From NCBI GenBank assembly GCA_020351835.1, contig CP070669.1:1620876-1654066 (forward strand): a DNA stretch of 33,191 nucleotides, read 5' to 3'. The position numbers were made by a program, and so were the translations under genes. Of this stretch, positions 17,125-30,284 are shown in pieces (position 1 is the stretch's first letter; the number at the start of each line of letters is the position of its first letter). Under the pieces are notes generated by a model. The model was not told the DNA's origin. It searched no databases and saw only the letters and a list, made by a program, of their open reading frames with translations. The stretch is from Nitrospirota bacterium (GTDB lineage: Bacteria; Nitrospirota; Thermodesulfovibrionia; Thermodesulfovibrionales; BMS3Bbin05).

Positions 17125-17787
17125 ATGAGAAAGATCCTTATAGTTGGTGACTTTGAGACATTCCTTGAGATGGATAAGAACATTCTCTCAAGGGAGAACT
17201 GCCTGATGCTGGCATCCTCATCCGCGGAAGGTGCGATCGATATCCATAAGAGAGAGTTCTTCGACCTGATAATAACAGATTATGGTCTTCCGGGAATGGA
17301 CGGCGCTGAGCTATGTGAGTATATAAGGAAGCATATGACATTGAAGAAGGTATCTATTCTCTTGCTTTGCGATGATGATACCCAGGTCGACAGGGCCGGG
17401 AAGTGCGGTTCGAACGACTATCTAATGAGGCCATTTGGACCTGAAGACCTTAATGCAAAGATAAGCGAGCTTCTTGATATCGCTGACCGTGAGGGGAAAA
17501 GAGTGCTCTTACGGTCTGGGTTGAGCGTATCTGTCGATGAGGAAAGTTTCGAAACGGTCCCGGAAGACATAAGCAAGACAGGGATAGCTTTCAGGACCGA
17601 AAGGTCCATGGAAGAAGGACGTAAGGTATTGATAGCCTTTAAACTTGGAGATAACGATATATCGGTTCGCGGAGAGGTTGTCCGTATCAAGGAGGAAGGT
17701 TCGGGGGACATCCTTCACGGAGCACAGTTCGTTGACCTCGACCCCGAAACCAAGAGTATCATTGAGGAATATGTGAACTCGCATTGA
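17125..17787 (+). CDS. Receiver-PilZ protein (atypical receiver)
   Basis: 220 aa: receiver domain (about 1-118) joined to PilZ (about 121-215). The phospho-acceptor Asp is kept (D52 in LIITDYGLPGMDG), but the acidic pair is reduced to GD (G8, D9), the conserved Thr/Ser is Cys (C82) and the conserved Lys before Pro is Arg (R102). Phosphorylation-driven switching is therefore uncertain. PilZ looks functional: RxxxR (R122-R126) and DxSxxG (D148, S150, G153). It follows the HD-GYP gene by 46 bp and precedes the PilZ-J-TPR gene by 58 bp, all on the same strand. A related protein with a fully degenerate receiver is encoded at 29613-30284. Confidence 0.88.
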   Translation: MRKILIVGDFETFLEMDKNILSRENCLMLASSSAEGAIDIHKREFFDLIITDYGLPGMDGAELCEYIRKHMTLKKVSILLLCDDDTQVDRAGKCGSNDYLMRPFGPEDLNAKISELLDIADREGKRVLLRSGLSVSVDEESFETVPEDISKTGIAFRTERSMEEGRKVLIAFKLGDNDISVRGEVVRIKEEGSGDILHGAQFVDLDPETKSIIEEYVNSH

Positions 17788-20266: not shown

Positions 20267-20479
20267 AGAGAGTACAATCGACGTTATCCCCGGCCTCCTT
20301 ATCACAGACCTTCGGGATTAAATAACACGGCTCAGCCATCCAATGTCTTTTATCCGCCCTGATGTTGACATTATTATAAAAAAGGAGAATAATATACATA
20401 AGTAATACTAAAAATTGTTTATATGTTTTTTATTTTGATAATAGCGTCAAATAGCATTGAAAGTAATTCGGAGAAATGA

Positions 20480-20962
20480 GTGATCTGCTATTTGTGCGGT
20501 GACTTTATAAGGCAAAATCCTGATGAGTCAGGCACTGTCTGCGAAACTTGTTCTATGCACTACTGCTTTCGCTGCTCTGCTGAACTTGAGCACTGCTATG
20601 TGTGCGGGAGCAGTACGTCTAAGATAGAAACCAAGAAAGTCTCTGTGTTTGAGCCTGAAGACATACTTGCCGAGATTGATAACGAGGACAAACGGGACCA
20701 ACCAAGAAAAAAGATAAAGATAGAGTGCGCCTATAAGTTCGAAGATGATAGCGGCATAAACTATAAGGACAGGGGGCATAAGGCGCTAACAAAGAACATA
20801 AGTAAATCAGGGCTGTGCATATATTCATTGACACCCCTTGAGAAAGGACAAAGATTAAAATTTTCGGAGTGTAAAGCGCTCAGCGACAGGGCCTCTGCAA
20901 CAGTTAAGTGGGTAAAGAAGACCAATGGCAAGATATATATAGCGGGCCTGCAGTTCGAGTGA
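20480..20962 (+). CDS. Zinc-finger (four CxxC pairs)-PilZ fusion protein
   Basis: 160 aa. Residues 3-42 hold four CxxC pairs (C3/C6, C21/C24, C29/C32, C39/C42) plus H27 and H38, a spacing like RING/treble-clef double-zinc folds. Residues about 70-160 form a PilZ domain with RxxxR (R72-R76) and NxSxxG (N106, S108, G111), so c-di-GMP binding is likely. GTG 20480 is the start: GGAGA lies 5 bp upstream, the CxxC motif begins at codon 3, and the ATG at 20476 runs into a stop after eight codons. The combination suggests a c-di-GMP-controlled protein- or nucleic-acid-binding adaptor. It stands alone, with 213 bp before it. Confidence 0.82.
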   Translation: MICYLCGDFIRQNPDESGTVCETCSMHYCFRCSAELEHCYVCGSSTSKIETKKVSVFEPEDILAEIDNEDKRDQPRKKIKIECAYKFEDDSGINYKDRGHKALTKNISKSGLCIYSLTPLEKGQRLKFSECKALSDRASATVKWVKKTNGKIYIAGLQFE

Positions 20963-21032: not shown

Positions 21033-21887
21033 ATGAAAAAGACAAAGAAGGACCAGAGGCCAGCCAGTAGTATGACAAAGGCGGAACTCGCAGAGGAGAT
21101 AAAAAGGCTGAGGCGTAAGGTCTCCAGCCTGCATAAGTTCAAGGCCATGTACAATGAGATCAAGGGTGGTAGCAGGGAAGAAACTGCAGAGTATGAGAAA
21201 CTTGCAGCTCTGGGGCGATTTACGGCTAATGTTGCCCCTGAGATAAGGAACCCAATAACTGTAATTGGTGGGATAGCCAGGCGGATGATACTTAATGCGG
21301 AAGACAGAAGCAAGAACAGAGAATACCTTAAGATCATAGTCAAAGAGGCCAGGCGCCTTGAGGATGTGCTGACGGATGCGATAACATTCTCGGGCAAAGG
21401 TATCTTTCACAGGACCGAAAGCGATATCAATAGCATAGTGAAGAGTGAACTTGAAAAGTTAGTACATCAGTGCGGAGAAAGAGGTATCAAGGTAGAACAG
21501 AAAAGTGGAAGAATACCCTCGGTCTATGTGGATAAGAAGGAGGTTGGAGAGGCTATATTTAACATAATTGAAAATGCGGTGGATGCTATGGGCAAGGGAG
21601 GGACACTGACCATAGCAACGGAAGTTGAAAAGATGAGCGAACGTGATTATGTGACCGTAAATATTAGTGACACTGGAGAAGGGATACCTGAAGAGAAGAT
21701 AAAGGTCATATTTGAGCCTTTCTTCTCGACAAAGGTCGACCATCAGGATACAGGCCTTGGGCTGCCTATAGCAAAAAAGACGGTAGAGGTGCATGGTGGT
21801 TTCATTAAGGTTAAGAGCCAGGTAGGTATGGGGACTACATTCTCACTATATTTCCCGTTCAGGGGAAGGTCAAAAAAACGCAAATAG
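21033..21887 (+). CDS. Soluble histidine kinase with His-to-Pro change in the phosphorylation site
   Basis: 284 aa. A basic, Lys-rich coiled-coil N-terminus (1-45) precedes HisKA (about 50-120) and HATPase_c (about 150-280). The HisKA box reads FTANVAPEIRNPITVIGGIARRM, where the family has VAHEIRNPL: residue 69 is Pro (CCT at 21237-21239) in place of the phospho-accepting His. A single A-to-C change from CAT would explain it. The ATP site is intact (N box IIENAVDAM, G1 DTGEGIP, F box FEPFFSTK, G2 TGLGLPIAKK). It cannot autophosphorylate in the normal way unless another residue substitutes. No response regulator adjoins it. It may be a pseudokinase or a recently inactivated orphan. The shared terminator with hsp20 follows. 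Confidence 0.87.
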   Translation: MKKTKKDQRPASSMTKAELAEEIKRLRRKVSSLHKFKAMYNEIKGGSREETAEYEKLAALGRFTANVAPEIRNPITVIGGIARRMILNAEDRSKNREYLKIIVKEARRLEDVLTDAITFSGKGIFHRTESDINSIVKSELEKLVHQCGERGIKVEQKSGRIPSVYVDKKEVGEAIFNIIENAVDAMGKGGTLTIATEVEKMSERDYVTVNISDTGEGIPEEKIKVIFEPFFSTKVDHQDTGLGLPIAKKTVEVHGGFIKVKSQVGMGTTFSLYFPFRGRSKKRK

Positions 21888-22605: not shown

Positions 22606-23811
22606 TTATAAGCTCCTTAGAGCATATAGTTGATACTTGCTTGCTTCAATAGACTTTAACCACCACTTGCGAGACTTATAATAGTAATGTATCCCCCCTG
22701 CATATTGCTTTGCATACTTCTTTGATCCGTTATACTTGTATGCGGTTGCCCACGTCACCGGCAGGGATTTCCCGGCGAACATGACATTCTTTGAAGGCTT
22801 TATATCTGATGTACGGATATTAAGTTCGGCCACCTTTATTGATATCGTTTTCGCCGCCTCGGTCATACATAGAAATACATTATCAAGAACGTTGACCGGG
22901 ACCATCTGATGCCTTATACGTACTCCGGATGCCTCCTGTACCTTTTCTATCCAGTAATCAGATTGCAGAACGGTGTTTGCCGCACGTAAGGTCTGCTGGG
23001 TAGTGCCTGACCCTCCATACCAGAACTCCATGGCGAAGTTAGTCTCAAAGGCGCTTATTAGAAGCATATAATCGGTCGGTATACCATAGAAAAGCTCCGT
23101 AAAGAAGGAAGCCGCCACGATCTCCCTTATCTGATTATCACTAACATCCGCTCTGGGGGATATTCTTGAGTTAGCCCCCTTATCGTTTATTATAGCCGCC
23201 GATACTACGCCTATCACCGGTCTTAACTCAAGGAACCTGGCAGCATTAGCATCTACTTCGTCATAACTGAAAAGGTGTTCGCAGAAAAAATAGAGTAATC
23301 CTTCCTCGAAGTCGTTGAAATTTTCGCCGAGGTAATCCTTCAGCCAGGAGTTCTTTCTAAGAAAAGCAGCTCTTTCCTTTTCAGCATCCGCAATGATGGA
23401 TATATATTCCTTTCGAAGCTCCTCTATGTTCGTGTTTGTCATGAACTCACGCGTAAGACTGGCTGTAGCCCGTGACCTGCCGGCCGTCCAGTCCTTATCA
23501 GAAAAAGCCTCTTTCTGGCCAAGTAAGGATGATAGTGCCACGGACCTTACATATAGTATGAACCCTCTTTTATGCTCATCGTTAAGGCCATTGAACCACA
23601 TTGAGAATCCGAGGTTCTCGGGGCCATTATCATCTATCACGTCAAATACTGCGGACTCCATGTAGATCAGCCTCTTCTTGACGGAATCCGCTTCGGATAT
23701 GTATTCCGGGATCTCAAGTGTCCTGTTCGATTCGGCATACGATACTATCAGTACACCTATAGTTATCCATATTGCTGCGGACACTATCATTTTCGCTTTA
23801 TTTCTTCTCAA
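22606..23811 (-). CDS. Membrane-anchored lysozyme/lytic-transglycosylase-like protein
   Basis: 401 aa with an N-terminal membrane anchor (MIVSAAIWITIGVLIVSYA, 8-26). A long helical region follows (about 35-230). Residues about 240-400 resemble a lysozyme-like fold: LISAFETNFAMEFWYGGSGTTQQTLRAANTVL has a Glu (E256) in the ESNF-like position and GTTQQ where lytic transglycosylases carry GLMQ, and the C-terminus has AYKYNGSKKYAKQYAGGIHYYYKS. Peptidoglycan cleavage in the periplasm is a reasonable inference but not certain. TTG start at 23811, since the upstream ATG frame stops at once. A σ54-like site and a TATAAT box lie in its upstream region. It neighbours, divergently, the MurNAc-recycling pair. 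Confidence 0.72.
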   Translation of the reverse strand: MRRNKAKMIVSAAIWITIGVLIVSYAESNRTLEIPEYISEADSVKKRLIYMESAVFDVIDDNGPENLGFSMWFNGLNDEHKRGFILYVRSVALSSLLGQKEAFSDKDWTAGRSRATASLTREFMTNTNIEELRKEYISIIADAEKERAAFLRKNSWLKDYLGENFNDFEEGLLYFFCEHLFSYDEVDANAARFLELRPVIGVVSAAIINDKGANSRISPRADVSDNQIREIVAASFFTELFYGIPTDYMLLISAFETNFAMEFWYGGSGTTQQTLRAANTVLQSDYWIEKVQEASGVRIRHQMVPVNVLDNVFLCMTEAAKTISIKVAELNIRTSDIKPSKNVMFAGKSLPVTWATAYKYNGSKKYAKQYAGGIHYYYKSRKWWLKSIEASKYQLYALRSL

Positions 23812-24148: not shown

Positions 24149-25324
24149 ATGGTGAAAACAGGACTGGATAATATAAAGAGCAAATGGCCTAAAAGCTTAA
24201 ATGGAGCATCCGCCGGACTCGTTGTCAATCCCTCCTCGGTCAACGGTCAGTTGGAACACGCCGTTGATGTACTAAGATCTTTCAGTTCAATAAAGCTTAA
24301 GGCACTTTTCGGACCACAGCATGGTATCAGGGGAGAGACCCAGGATAACATGGTCGAATGGCAGGGGTTTAAGGACAAAAGGACAGGGCTACCGGTGTTC
24401 AGCCTTTATGGGTCGACCAGGGAGCCTCTCGATGATATGTTAAGAGGTCTGGATGTGCTCATTATCGATATGCAGGATGCGGGTGCGCGATACTATACGT
24501 TTATCTGGACAATGGCGCTTTGCATGAACGCATGCGAGCAAAAAGGGATCTCATTGGTCATACTTGACAGGCCTAATCCCATAAATGGTTCAGATACAGA
24601 GGGGCCTGTCCTGGACCCGGCATTCACCTCTTTTGTTGGCCTCTATCCAATACCTGTCCGCCACGGAATGACGATAGGCGAGATAGGTGTTTACCTGAAG
24701 GATGTGTTCTTTCATGACCTTGAGCTTATTGTTATCAAGATGAGAGGATGGAGCAGGAAGATGTGGTTCGATGATACAGGTTTGCCTTGGGTGTTGCCAT
24801 CTCCTAACCTTCCAACTCTTCAGTCTTCTATGGTTTATCCGGGCATGTGTTTGCTCGAGGGGACAAATATGAGTGAAGGAAGGGGAACAACAAGGCCTTT
24901 TGAGATATTCGGAGCCCCTTATATAGAACCTTATGATCTGGTGAGGAGGTTAAGAAGGTATATGCTTCCCGGAGTTGGTTTCAGGCCGCTCTACTTTGAG
25001 CCAACGTTCCAGAAATACGCGGGGAAACTATGCGGGGGAGCCCAGCTTCATGTTGAGGACAGGAAGAAATTCCGCCCTTTCAGAACAGGCGTGGCAGTTG
25101 TAAAGGCCGTTCATGATCTATTCCCAGAGAGGTTCAAATGGAAACAGCCTCCTTACGAATATGAGCGAGAGAAGTTACCGTTCGATATCCTGTGCGGTAC
25201 AGACAGAATAAGGAAAGATATCGAGGGAGGAAAGAACATTGGATCGATGGTAAGATGGTGGGAAGGACAGTGCTCGAAGTTCGATCACGAAATAAGAAGA
25301 AGATGCATTATATATGAAAAATAA
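24149..25324 (+). CDS. namZ: DUF1343/NamZ-like exo-β-N-acetylmuramidase
   Basis: 391-aa member of DUF1343, whose characterised member NamZ (Bacillus subtilis YbbC) removes MurNAc from the non-reducing end of peptidoglycan fragments. Family motifs: LVVNPSSVNGQ, ALFGPQHGIRGETQDN, PVFSLYG, DVLIIDMQDAGARYYTFIWTM, ILDRPNPINGSDTEGPVL, PVRHGMTIGE, PSPNLPTLQSSMVYPGMCLLEGTN and SEGRGTTRPFEIFGAP. Many relatives are secreted, but no signal peptide is visible here, so this one probably acts in the cytoplasm on imported muropeptides. GGAG lies 8 bp before ATG. Its last 11 bp overlap the MurU-AmgK-like gene, a direct link to MurNAc recycling. The symbol is by family resemblance. Confidence 0.88.
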   Translation: MVKTGLDNIKSKWPKSLNGASAGLVVNPSSVNGQLEHAVDVLRSFSSIKLKALFGPQHGIRGETQDNMVEWQGFKDKRTGLPVFSLYGSTREPLDDMLRGLDVLIIDMQDAGARYYTFIWTMALCMNACEQKGISLVILDRPNPINGSDTEGPVLDPAFTSFVGLYPIPVRHGMTIGEIGVYLKDVFFHDLELIVIKMRGWSRKMWFDDTGLPWVLPSPNLPTLQSSMVYPGMCLLEGTNMSEGRGTTRPFEIFGAPYIEPYDLVRRLRRYMLPGVGFRPLYFEPTFQKYAGKLCGGAQLHVEDRKKFRPFRTGVAVVKAVHDLFPERFKWKQPPYEYEREKLPFDILCGTDRIRKDIEGGKNIGSMVRWWEGQCSKFDHEIRRRCIIYEK

Positions 25325-27182
25325 GTTCAAGACCTTCATTCTGGCAGCCGGACTCGGTGAGAGACTAAGGCCTATTACTGATCATATCCCCAAGCCCCTG
25401 ATGCCCGTTCTCGGTAAGCCTGTTATAGAGAGAGTGATAAGGTCGATGAACGGGCTCGATCATGCCGGCATGGGCATGAACCTGCATTATAAGAGAGAAA
25501 TAATTGAAGAATGGCTCAATAAGAACGGTTATAGCGATGATATAAAGACCTTCCATGAGGACCCAATATTGGGAACAGGCGGTGCCCTGAGGAATGCTGC
25601 CGATTTTCTAAGTGAATGCACCTTCCTTGTCCATAACTCCGATATCATCTCTGACGTTGATCTGGCCGAACTGGTGGCGTTCCACGAAAGTTCCGGCAAT
25701 ATTGCGACACTTGCTGTCCACTATCATGAGAAGTTCAATAATCTGTGTGTCGACAGTGAAGGAGATTTCAAGATGATAGGGTTTGGATATTGCATCCCTA
25801 CAAGAGGCCTGACAAGGCTTGCTTTTACAGGGATCGCTGTATATGAGCCTGAATTTCTTGAATTCCTTCCACCGGGCGATTCCAGTGTGATCGAGGCATG
25901 GGACAAGGCGGTTAGTGCGGGGCGTAAGATAGGAACATTGGATGTTACGGGGAGCAAATGGACGGATATTGGTACTCCTGCGTCCTATGCCAGAGCGGTG
26001 TTCCAGCTAATGAGGGAGGATGGTGAGAGCATGTATATTGATCCGGAGGCCGGTGGGTGTAAAGAGGTTGCAATGGCCGGTATGGTAGCATTGGAGAGCG
26101 GAAGCTCGGCAAAAAAGGGGGCATCTCTAAAGAATTGTATATTGCTAAGGGGGGGGATGGCGGAGAAAGGCGAAAACCTCGAGAACTGCATAAAGATAGC
26201 GGGACATGTATTGAAAATTGATGAGGGGCGGCTCTTTCCAGTAAAGCACAGGACCGGAATGCAGATGATCGGATCGGGCGGTTCCGATCGTGATTACTAC
26301 AGGATGTCATATGGGACGGGCACTGCTGTCCTTCTCAGGAACGCAGGTAAGGATTCAGGTCTTGAAAGACATATCCGTTTAACAGAGTATCTGTCCGGGA
26401 ACGGAGTTCCTGTACCAGGGCTGTTATCGGCTGACACGAGCAAGAATGAGGCAATTTTCGAAGATCTTGGAGATACATCATTGTATAACTGGCTTAAGTG
26501 CGAGGACGAGGCTTCAGAGATCGAGATGATGTATCGAAGTGTTCTGGATGTTGCCCTGAAGATGCACTTTGAATTAGAAGGTTCAAGGGTTTGCGATGAG
26601 ATAAAAGAAGTTATATTCGACTATGGACATTTCAGGTGGGAGACGGATTATTTTATTGAGATGTTCGTTCGCGGTATAAGAGGCCTGGAGATGTTTGACA
26701 GGCCGGCACTGGAAAACGATCTGGACGAACTTGCAAGAACCGCTGATGAGTTCAATAAGACGGTCATACATAGAGATCTTCAGTCTCAGAACATAATGGT
26801 AGTCAGTGACGGGTCACCCAGATTGATCGATTACCAGGGCGCTAGAATGGGACCTCCTGCTTATGACCTGGCATCGCTTCTCTGGGACCCTTATGCAAAG
26901 CTTGATGCCAAAATGAGAAGCGATCTTTTGAGGTATTATCTGTGGAAAGCGACAGAGGTTTCAGGGGGGCAGGCCGATGTCGGTGAGATAGAGAGATCAC
27001 TGATATACTGCAGGCTTCAGAGACATATGCAGTCCCTTGGTGCTTACGGTAACCTTTCCATGAACATGGGGAAAAGATATTTTCTTAAGTTCGTTACCGA
27101 AGGTATCGATCTGTTGAAGGTGGACATGAAAGAGCTAAATGAGGGCCTGCCCGCACTTCGAGAGCTTATTGGTTCGTTATAG
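25314..27182 (+). CDS. MurU-AmgK-like fusion: sugar-1-phosphate nucleotidyltransferase plus MurNAc kinase-like domain
   Basis: 622 aa. Residues 1-235 are a nucleotidyltransferase (LAAGLGERLRPITDHIPKPLM at 10-30; GTGGALRNA at 87-95; HNSD at 107-110; WTDIGTP at 216-222). Residues about 240-305 look like a short hexapeptide-type linker. Residues about 315-615 are an APH/choline-kinase-type domain with HRDLQSQN (486-493) and IDYQGARMGPPAYDLASLLW (metal-binding D506). In Pseudomonas, AmgK makes MurNAc-1-phosphate and MurU converts it to UDP-MurNAc as separate proteins; here both steps are apparently on one chain in reverse order. Overlap with the NamZ-like gene supports MurNAc as substrate. Alternative: another sugar-1-phosphate route. 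Confidence 0.85.
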   Translation: MKNKFKTFILAAGLGERLRPITDHIPKPLMPVLGKPVIERVIRSMNGLDHAGMGMNLHYKREIIEEWLNKNGYSDDIKTFHEDPILGTGGALRNAADFLSECTFLVHNSDIISDVDLAELVAFHESSGNIATLAVHYHEKFNNLCVDSEGDFKMIGFGYCIPTRGLTRLAFTGIAVYEPEFLEFLPPGDSSVIEAWDKAVSAGRKIGTLDVTGSKWTDIGTPASYARAVFQLMREDGESMYIDPEAGGCKEVAMAGMVALESGSSAKKGASLKNCILLRGGMAEKGENLENCIKIAGHVLKIDEGRLFPVKHRTGMQMIGSGGSDRDYYRMSYGTGTAVLLRNAGKDSGLERHIRLTEYLSGNGVPVPGLLSADTSKNEAIFEDLGDTSLYNWLKCEDEASEIEMMYRSVLDVALKMHFELEGSRVCDEIKEVIFDYGHFRWETDYFIEMFVRGIRGLEMFDRPALENDLDELARTADEFNKTVIHRDLQSQNIMVVSDGSPRLIDYQGARMGPPAYDLASLLWDPYAKLDAKMRSDLLRYYLWKATEVSGGQADVGEIERSLIYCRLQRHMQSLGAYGNLSMNMGKRYFLKFVTEGIDLLKVDMKELNEGLPALRELIGSL

Positions 27183-28607: not shown

Positions 28608-29318
28608 ATGATATCAGGCAACAAGTGCTTATGCTGTTTAATGTATCATCAGATGTTTTTTATTGTCAATTTTGGCATTTATGGTGGGACCTATCTTGAT
28701 TCTCTCTATGATCTGATGTATATTTATAGCGTGGATGAAAATATAGTGCAAAAGTTCAATGAGGCCTTCGACAAGTATTCCAGGTCAGAGTATGAATCTG
28801 ATGGAGTAGTGCTGGGAGACATTATAGAGATAAACGGCAAGCCCGAAGGGGTCAGGGTCCAGCTGGCGCTTCTCATTTTTTTTATTATAGTCCCGGTCGT
28901 TGCCCTGATCGAGGACAGATCATTGCTCTTGATCACTTTCTCACTATTATGGATCATTGTTTCTGTGAAAGTTATGTATGAGATCACTAAAGCTGACCTC
29001 TACGCCAGGTTCAGCTATGTTGAGAAGACCTTTGAGGTCGAGAACATAAATCTTTTGATAGGGAAGATCAGAAGTTTGATAGGCTTCAGGTATTCCTGGG
29101 AAGGGATACATAAATGGTCGGACATGAAGCAGATATTGCTAAGAGAAAAGAAGTTCGGTAAATTGATCTCTAATAAGGAATATCGACTCATTTTCATCGG
29201 GACCAACCGGAAGGAATACCCTATAGCTGAGTTCACAAACAGCCACCTCGCCGAGAACGTCGCTTATATACTAGCGAGACTGACCGGGGCAAAATACTAT
29301 AAGATAAGGGCTCACTAA
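28608..29318 (+). CDS. Two-TM membrane protein, unknown function
   Basis: Up to 236 aa. The region from about residue 37 (MYIYSVDENIVQKFNEAFDKYS) reads as a real protein: a short soluble part, two adjacent membrane helices (about 85-102 and 104-122) and a C-terminal cytoplasmic-type domain (about 125-236) with GIHKWSDMKQILLREKK and YPIAEFTNSHLAENVAYILARL. The first 36 codons are AT-rich and Cys-rich and may not be translated; ATG 28716 is an alternative start, though neither has a strong ribosome-binding site. No family recognised. It is divergent from the cNMP-binding gene with only 23 bp between starts if 28608 is used, which also favours a later start. Confidence 0.62.
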   Translation: MISGNKCLCCLMYHQMFFIVNFGIYGGTYLDSLYDLMYIYSVDENIVQKFNEAFDKYSRSEYESDGVVLGDIIEINGKPEGVRVQLALLIFFIIVPVVALIEDRSLLLITFSLLWIIVSVKVMYEITKADLYARFSYVEKTFEVENINLLIGKIRSLIGFRYSWEGIHKWSDMKQILLREKKFGKLISNKEYRLIFIGTNRKEYPIAEFTNSHLAENVAYILARLTGAKYYKIRAH

Positions 29319-29612: not shown

Positions 29613-30284
29613 TCAGATCATTTCTCTTATCTTTATATAGTCATCAATAAGTGCCTTTGACGTTGCATCGAGATTATTGAACCTGAGGCCATATTGGAAA
29701 TGGTTATCGCCCAGTTCGAGCTTTCTGACCACCTCTCCCTCGATCGTAACACGGTTAAGCCTCATGAATATCGAAAAGTTGAGAGTATCACCCTTATTAA
29801 GGGCTTTATTTGTCTCTATCAGCATCCCTGAGGAACTAATATTCTTCGAACTGCAGTAAAAGGAGTTCTTGAACTTGCCGTCGACAGCAATGTTCATAAG
29901 TACTCTTATGCCCCGCCTCTGGGGTACATCGAGAAGCTCGCTGGCCTTTCTGTACAGCTCCTGCGAATAGACGGGCTCTGTAATGATGGCATTAGCACCT
30001 GCAAAGACACATTTGTCTATAGATCCCTGTTCATTATCACAAGTCAGAAGAACTGATACGTTACGCAGTTCCTTATCGCTCCTGAGGGTTTTACAGAGCC
30101 TGTCACCTCCCATCCTCGGGAGGCTCAGGCTGGCTATTACAAGTTCCGCTGGAGACCCTACATGTATCTCAAGCATCTCTTCGCAAGAGGAGGCCGAAAC
30201 CATTTCTATATCGGATCTCAGTATAAAGCTGCTGTTCTTGTCAAGGAAATGCTTAAGTCTCTTTTCAACAATGATCTTTTTCAT
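29613..30284 (-). CDS. Pseudo-receiver-PilZ protein
   Basis: 223-aa paralogue of the receiver-PilZ protein at 17125-17787 with the same domain order. The receiver has lost its chemistry: the phospho-acceptor position is Ser (S52 in ELVIASLSLPRMGG), the acidic pair is absent (IIVEKR) and the conserved Lys-Pro is Glu-Pro (TEP, 102-104). The PilZ half is intact, with RxxxR (R123-R127) and NxSxxG (N148, S150, G153). It therefore should bind c-di-GMP but not receive phosphate; the receiver fold likely serves as a dimer or partner-binding platform. Monocistronic, minus strand; the 320-bp AT-rich region upstream separates it from the divergent receiver-GGDEF gene. Confidence 0.87.
   Translation of the reverse strand: MKKIIVEKRLKHFLDKNSSFILRSDIEMVSASSCEEMLEIHVGSPAELVIASLSLPRMGGDRLCKTLRSDKELRNVSVLLTCDNEQGSIDKCVFAGANAIITEPVYSQELYRKASELLDVPQRRGIRVLMNIAVDGKFKNSFYCSSKNISSSGMLIETNKALNKGDTLNFSIFMRLNRVTIEGEVVRKLELGDNHFQYGLRFNNLDATSKALIDDYIKIREMI

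Follow-up and report, generated by a model that had tools for sequence, protein, structure and literature searches.

Can a histidine kinase that has lost its phospho-accepting His still be a working protein? The question is raised by a gene at 21033..21887 (+) of the DNA analysed here, a stretch of 33,191 nucleotides from a Nitrospirota bacterium (the window). The gene encodes a soluble orphan HisKA-HATPase kinase of 284 aa, read from ATG to TAG, with Pro where the phospho-accepting His is expected. We asked what kind of protein this is, when the His was lost, and which explanation of the Pro best fits the gene and its relatives.

Fold and H box of the kinase

Pfam matched HisKA to residues 60-120 (40.1 bits, cut-off 26.9) and HATPase_c to residues 167-277 (91.8 bits, cut-off 26.4). 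No transmembrane segment, PAS domain or other sensor domain was detected in the 284-aa kinase, and its N-terminal 55 residues are charged and coiled-coil-like, a feature common to its relatives. The reading frame contains no stop and no frameshift, and no ATP-binding box is missing. The N box (EAIFNIIENAVDAM, 21549..21590), the G1 box (DTGEGIP, 21669..21689), the F box (FEPFFSTK, 21711..21734) and the G2 box (TGLGL, 21750..21764), all on the + strand, are intact, as an earlier note on this DNA had stated. The top match among solved structures was ZraS (9jfj, 3.8e-32), and AtoS and ZraS were the top NCBIfam models, with scores far under their equivalog cut-offs. HisKA kinases of the ZraS, AtoS and NtrB type possess both the His and sensor domains, whereas the 284-aa kinase has neither.

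The H box, residues 67-74 (21231..21254, +), reads VAPEIRNP within the sequence FTANVAPEIRNPITVIGG, and the codon CCT at 21237..21239 (+) places Pro69 at the phospho-accepting site, exactly as the earlier note had read it. No compensating His is present in the sequence close to residue 69. Both E70, the kinase residue at H+1, and N73, the phosphatase residue at H+4, are retained; N73 agrees with the Asn-or-Thr rule at H+4 for phosphatase-competent HisKA kinases. Judged by its sequence, the product has the fold of a HisKA kinase but lacks the defining catalytic feature, the phospho-accepting His. This combination of retained fold and missing phospho-acceptor places it, as a working class, among the pseudo-histidine kinases.

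A degenerate-codon search for A-P-E-I-R-N-P across 396 genomes of the phylum found it in one, that of the window, so that the Pro state is not conserved across species. Each of the order's 176 genomes has the His version, A-H-E-I-R-N-P, in 1-8 copies. The occurrence of APEIRNP is far beyond chance.

Relatives, neighbourhood and rate of change

The closest relatives of the window protein are short kinases of 271-278 aa (counted from the first ATG) in seven genomes of the order (G121, G123, G118, G116, G119, G032 and G175). They are 46-50% identical to it over the full length and at most 54% in the core. They resemble it in length, in the coiled N-terminus, in having no sensor domain and in the H box (GRLTANVAHEIRNP), but all of them carry His and their neighbouring genes are generally unshared. 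In a maximum-likelihood tree of 43 cores the window protein nested within the short-kinase clade (support 100/100), while nine kinases with Asp at the His site, described below, formed a separate clade (83/83 for the nine, 100/98 for eight of them). Because the window protein nests among His-bearing short kinases, its Pro represents a lineage-specific change from a His ancestor; and because the Pro and Asp types fall in distinct clades, the His has been lost at least twice among related kinases. The site codon of the seven relatives is CAT in six and CAC in one, so that one A-to-C change from CAT suffices for Pro69, in agreement with the change that had been suggested at 21238. The earlier note also proposed comparing orthologues at this codon, and here the answer is partial: His in 7/7 other clade members makes the Pro unconserved, yet these relatives are only 46-54% identical and the congener has no copy of the gene.

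The distribution of the clade is patchy, with members in 8 of the order's 176 genomes. The sole other genome of the genus (G001) has no orthologue, and the flanking mtgA is also missing there. The kinase's own genome has 44 HATPase_c places and no close paralogue, the next best match being 33% identical. A contig scan for an orthologue among the named genomes returned 44 loci, all distant (~26-40%), and those that span the site all have His. One related kinase (L017, G037:C24:56487-57182) reads VAHSIRNP, with Ser in place of the acidic residue after the His, a substitution predicted to compromise kinase activity.

Constraint on the rest of the protein was compared across the clade. At 34 DHp positions invariant in the seven other members the window protein has five changes, of which only H69P is radical; L63F, L85M, V116A and L117I are conservative. 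In the CA domain it alters 3 of 38 invariant positions, all mildly, against 8 of 43 in the His-bearing kinase L002. The DHp/CA distance ratio, 0.96, is the highest in the clade (0.64-0.80 in the others), with overlapping bootstrap intervals, and hints at best at a loosening of constraint on DHp. Relative to the distance between two clade members, the window's copy lies 1.3x as far from the clade for the kinase and 2.8x for mtgA. The control is a single gene from two of the same genomes, and horizontal exchange of the neighbouring kinases is possible. An old null gene is unlikely, since there is no acceleration relative to mtgA and the other residues are largely kept. A recent null and retained function are both compatible with these data. 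Between the window gene and its relatives synonymous sites are saturated, and dS gives no dN/dS. The earlier description of a gene otherwise free of decay holds on all three counts, namely an intact reading frame, mild DHp and CA changes and no rate acceleration.

The kinase lies in a cluster of c-di-GMP genes (8704-31897) that encodes an HD-GYP protein, two REC-PilZ and two REC-GGDEF proteins, further PilZ proteins and one cNMP-binding protein; 5-6 of the 28 PilZ domains of the genome fall within the 33-kb window. The gene 70 bp upstream (20480..20962, +) encodes a PilZ-domain protein with a Cys-rich N-terminus and is possibly co-transcribed with the kinase. A promoter-like match was found at 20365-20393; the number of such matches is not above chance. 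On the 3' side a small heat-shock gene is convergent with the kinase, with a hairpin between the two. One REC-PilZ response regulator (17125..17787, +) has kept its phospho-accepting Asp and is a possible partner of the kinase. Another (29613-30284, -) has a receiver without the phospho-accepting Asp (Ser instead) and the conserved Lys. In G160 a REC-PilZ protein with Lys in place of the Asp (L156:1905-2600) is encoded 0.6 kb from an Asp-type kinase. An association of kinase and PilZ genes (window, G118 and G160) was considered; with 28 PilZ domains in the genome it stays within chance expectation (rough estimate ~0.2), and neither the short nor the Asp-type kinases have a conserved gene neighbourhood beyond near relatives. 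Elsewhere in the window, at 24149-27182, a NamZ exo-beta-N-acetylmuramidase gene adjoins one for a fused nucleotidyltransferase-APH kinase (622 aa), an arrangement that we take to be reminiscent of the fused MurU-AmgK of MurNAc recycling. Two reading frames, 22606-23811 (-, 401 aa) and 28608-29318 (+, 236 aa), had no Pfam match.

Kinases with Asp or Asn at the His site

The order was searched for the H-box motif with A, G or T at the first position of the His codon, a search that covers Asn, Asp and Tyr codons. This gave 27 matches, 18 of them chance matches outside kinases; the nine that lie in histidine kinases all have Asp. These Asp-type loci (L125, L141 and L143-L149) come from nine genomes (G047, G149, G024, G159, G160, G013, G170, G171 and G017) of families f5, f12 and f13, and encode PAS-HisKA-HATPase proteins with VADEIRNP and the other boxes intact. 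They are like the window kinase in the loss of His, in keeping the H+1 Glu and the H+4 Asn, and in a related HisKA-HATPase core (43-46% identical in 8/9). They differ from it in belonging to a separate clade with its own loss, in having a PAS domain, and in that their Asp is conserved under strong purifying selection. Pairwise dN/dS was 0.03-0.13 for the DHp domain (unsaturated pairs) and ~0.12-0.16 for CA; for comparison, CA of His kinases gave ~0.05 in three related pairs and 0.12-0.18 in two short-His pairs. Because the His-less DHp is as a rule their most constrained part, we conclude that the Asp-type proteins function, and in this type the His-less state has been conserved under selection.

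Kinases of another type have the H box NE[IL]NNP, with Asn at the site. One is encoded in the same genome as the window (G000:C1:366228-367136), and its orthologues were found in another five (G036, G015, G026, G003 and G040) of families f3 and f8; Asn is present in 6/6. The gene for this ~303 aa kinase is directly followed by cheD in five genomes, its own (L172:6229-7635, G000:C1:366228-367634) and four of f3 (L173-L176), while the sixth orthologue (G040) retains Asn and has no recognised cheD. CheD was confirmed by Pfam in the own genome (104.6 bits) and identified in the others by similarity to that protein. In the f3 genomes the kinase-cheD pair comes after dnaN and, in several, before gyrB; in the own genome the kinase is preceded by cheB. 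Like the window kinase, the Asn type is short and soluble, has no phospho-accepting His and keeps its ATP-binding boxes. It is distant from the window kinase, however (26% identical), its Asn is conserved, and it adjoins cheD in five genomes. The Asp-type and Asn-type proteins are stronger cases of working pseudokinases than the Pro69 kinase itself.

Possible roles of the Pro69 kinase

The explanation that we tentatively favour, as the most likely of those considered, is that the product of 21033-21887 is a folded but kinase-dead histidine kinase acting as a phosphatase or as a regulator-binding sink. Pro69 would preclude autophosphorylation, as follows from histidine kinase chemistry; autophosphorylation is lost in EnvZ H243 mutants (PMC2991266). 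By sequence, the protein retains its DHp surface, N73 as the phosphatase residue, and the whole of the ATP-binding domain. Such a protein may bind a response regulator that a different kinase has phosphorylated, and then dephosphorylate or sequester it, and ATP or ADP binding could set its conformation. The tree shows a single loss of the His, in the lineage of this kinase and from an ancestor that had it. The REC-PilZ or REC-GGDEF proteins of the c-di-GMP-rich neighbourhood are candidate partners only; no cognate regulator or partner kinase was identified. Precedent comes from CrdS, whose H box (LAHEIKNPL) is nearly identical to that of the window kinase. In CrdS the Glu at H+1 serves the kinase only and the Asn at H+4 the phosphatase only, and H371A abolishes kinase activity with a modest loss of phosphatase, most of which is retained (PMC3510030). 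In PleC, by contrast, H610A abolished both kinase and phosphatase (PMC3510030). The intact HisKA and HATPase domains argue for a kinase-dead protein still in use, as do H69P as the sole radical DHp change, a CA domain as well kept as in the His-bearing members, the absence of neutral acceleration against mtgA and of a close paralogue, and the persistence of Asp-type and Asn-type kinases in the same order. Against it, the gene is patchy, missing from the only congener and perhaps dispensable, Pro was found in no second genome among the 396, and the DHp/CA ratio is the clade's highest, although the intervals overlap.

Pro in helix alpha1 is a disruptive replacement. It breaks helices, which Asn, Asp, Tyr and Ala do not, and the phosphatase geometry may suffer. 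Because Pro is the more disruptive residue there, we gave nearly equal weight to a recent null allele, a young A-to-C loss of function in a dispensable orphan kinase that has not yet accumulated further damage. This explanation, almost as likely as a kinase-dead protein and likewise tentative, accounts for a Pro unique to one genome, for the His of all seven clade members and for a gene that is patchy and absent from the congener; it sits less well with a reading frame without stop, frameshift or loss of an ATP-binding box, with a rate that is not accelerated, and with the lack of a close paralogue that would make the kinase redundant. The helix argument also kept an assembly base error, with the organism truly CAT at 21237-21239, at a low weight. 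A single base in one genome, against CAT or CAC throughout the rest of the clade, is what such an error would produce, but the assembly is a single contig of 2.29 Mb (97% complete, 0% contamination), and the substitution leaves the reading frame around it undisturbed. A lone transversion is uncommon in a finished assembly, and we consider an error unlikely. The two possibilities raised in the earlier note, a pseudokinase and a recent loss-of-function allele, both survive.

Less probable still is a protein that works like DivL, enzymatically inactive, sensing a phosphorylated receiver and allosterically driving another kinase. The His of DivL is replaced by Tyr (by Ala in one species); DivL has neither kinase nor phosphatase activity, and its contact with DivK~P is made by the usual docking surface (PMC4211667). 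The window kinase is like DivL in the replaced His, the retained ATP-binding domain and the HisKA fold, and its DHp surface is kept. DivL, however, has Tyr and not Pro, uses several PAS domains where the window kinase has none, is a membrane and polar protein, and is conserved across the alphaproteobacteria; the window kinase has no PAS domain and neither Tyr nor Ala in place of the His, and the analysis turned up neither a partner kinase nor a cognate regulator for such a role.

Pseudo-histidine kinases are already known from DivL, and the Pro69 kinase adds another member. To our knowledge DivL is the textbook example among the small number of His-less HisKA kinases that have been studied. 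The Asp-type and Asn-type families raise the interest of the Pro69 kinase moderately, as His-less kinases are in use in its relatives. The Asp-less receivers, that with Ser at 29613-30284 and that with Lys near the Asp-type kinase of G160, led us to propose a phosphate-independent reading of the whole set. It is a long shot that the order runs 'two-component' signalling in which His-less kinases (Pro, Asp and Asn) pair with Asp-less receiver-PilZ proteins; if true, the signal would be carried by ATP binding and c-di-GMP and not by phosphotransfer. The order holds a comparative set consisting of a fresh Pro loss, an old and selected Asp loss, a conserved Asn loss linked through cheD to chemotaxis, and His-bearing sisters. 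This set makes it testable how a histidine kinase turns into something else, and whether phosphatase activity or docking is what is kept first.
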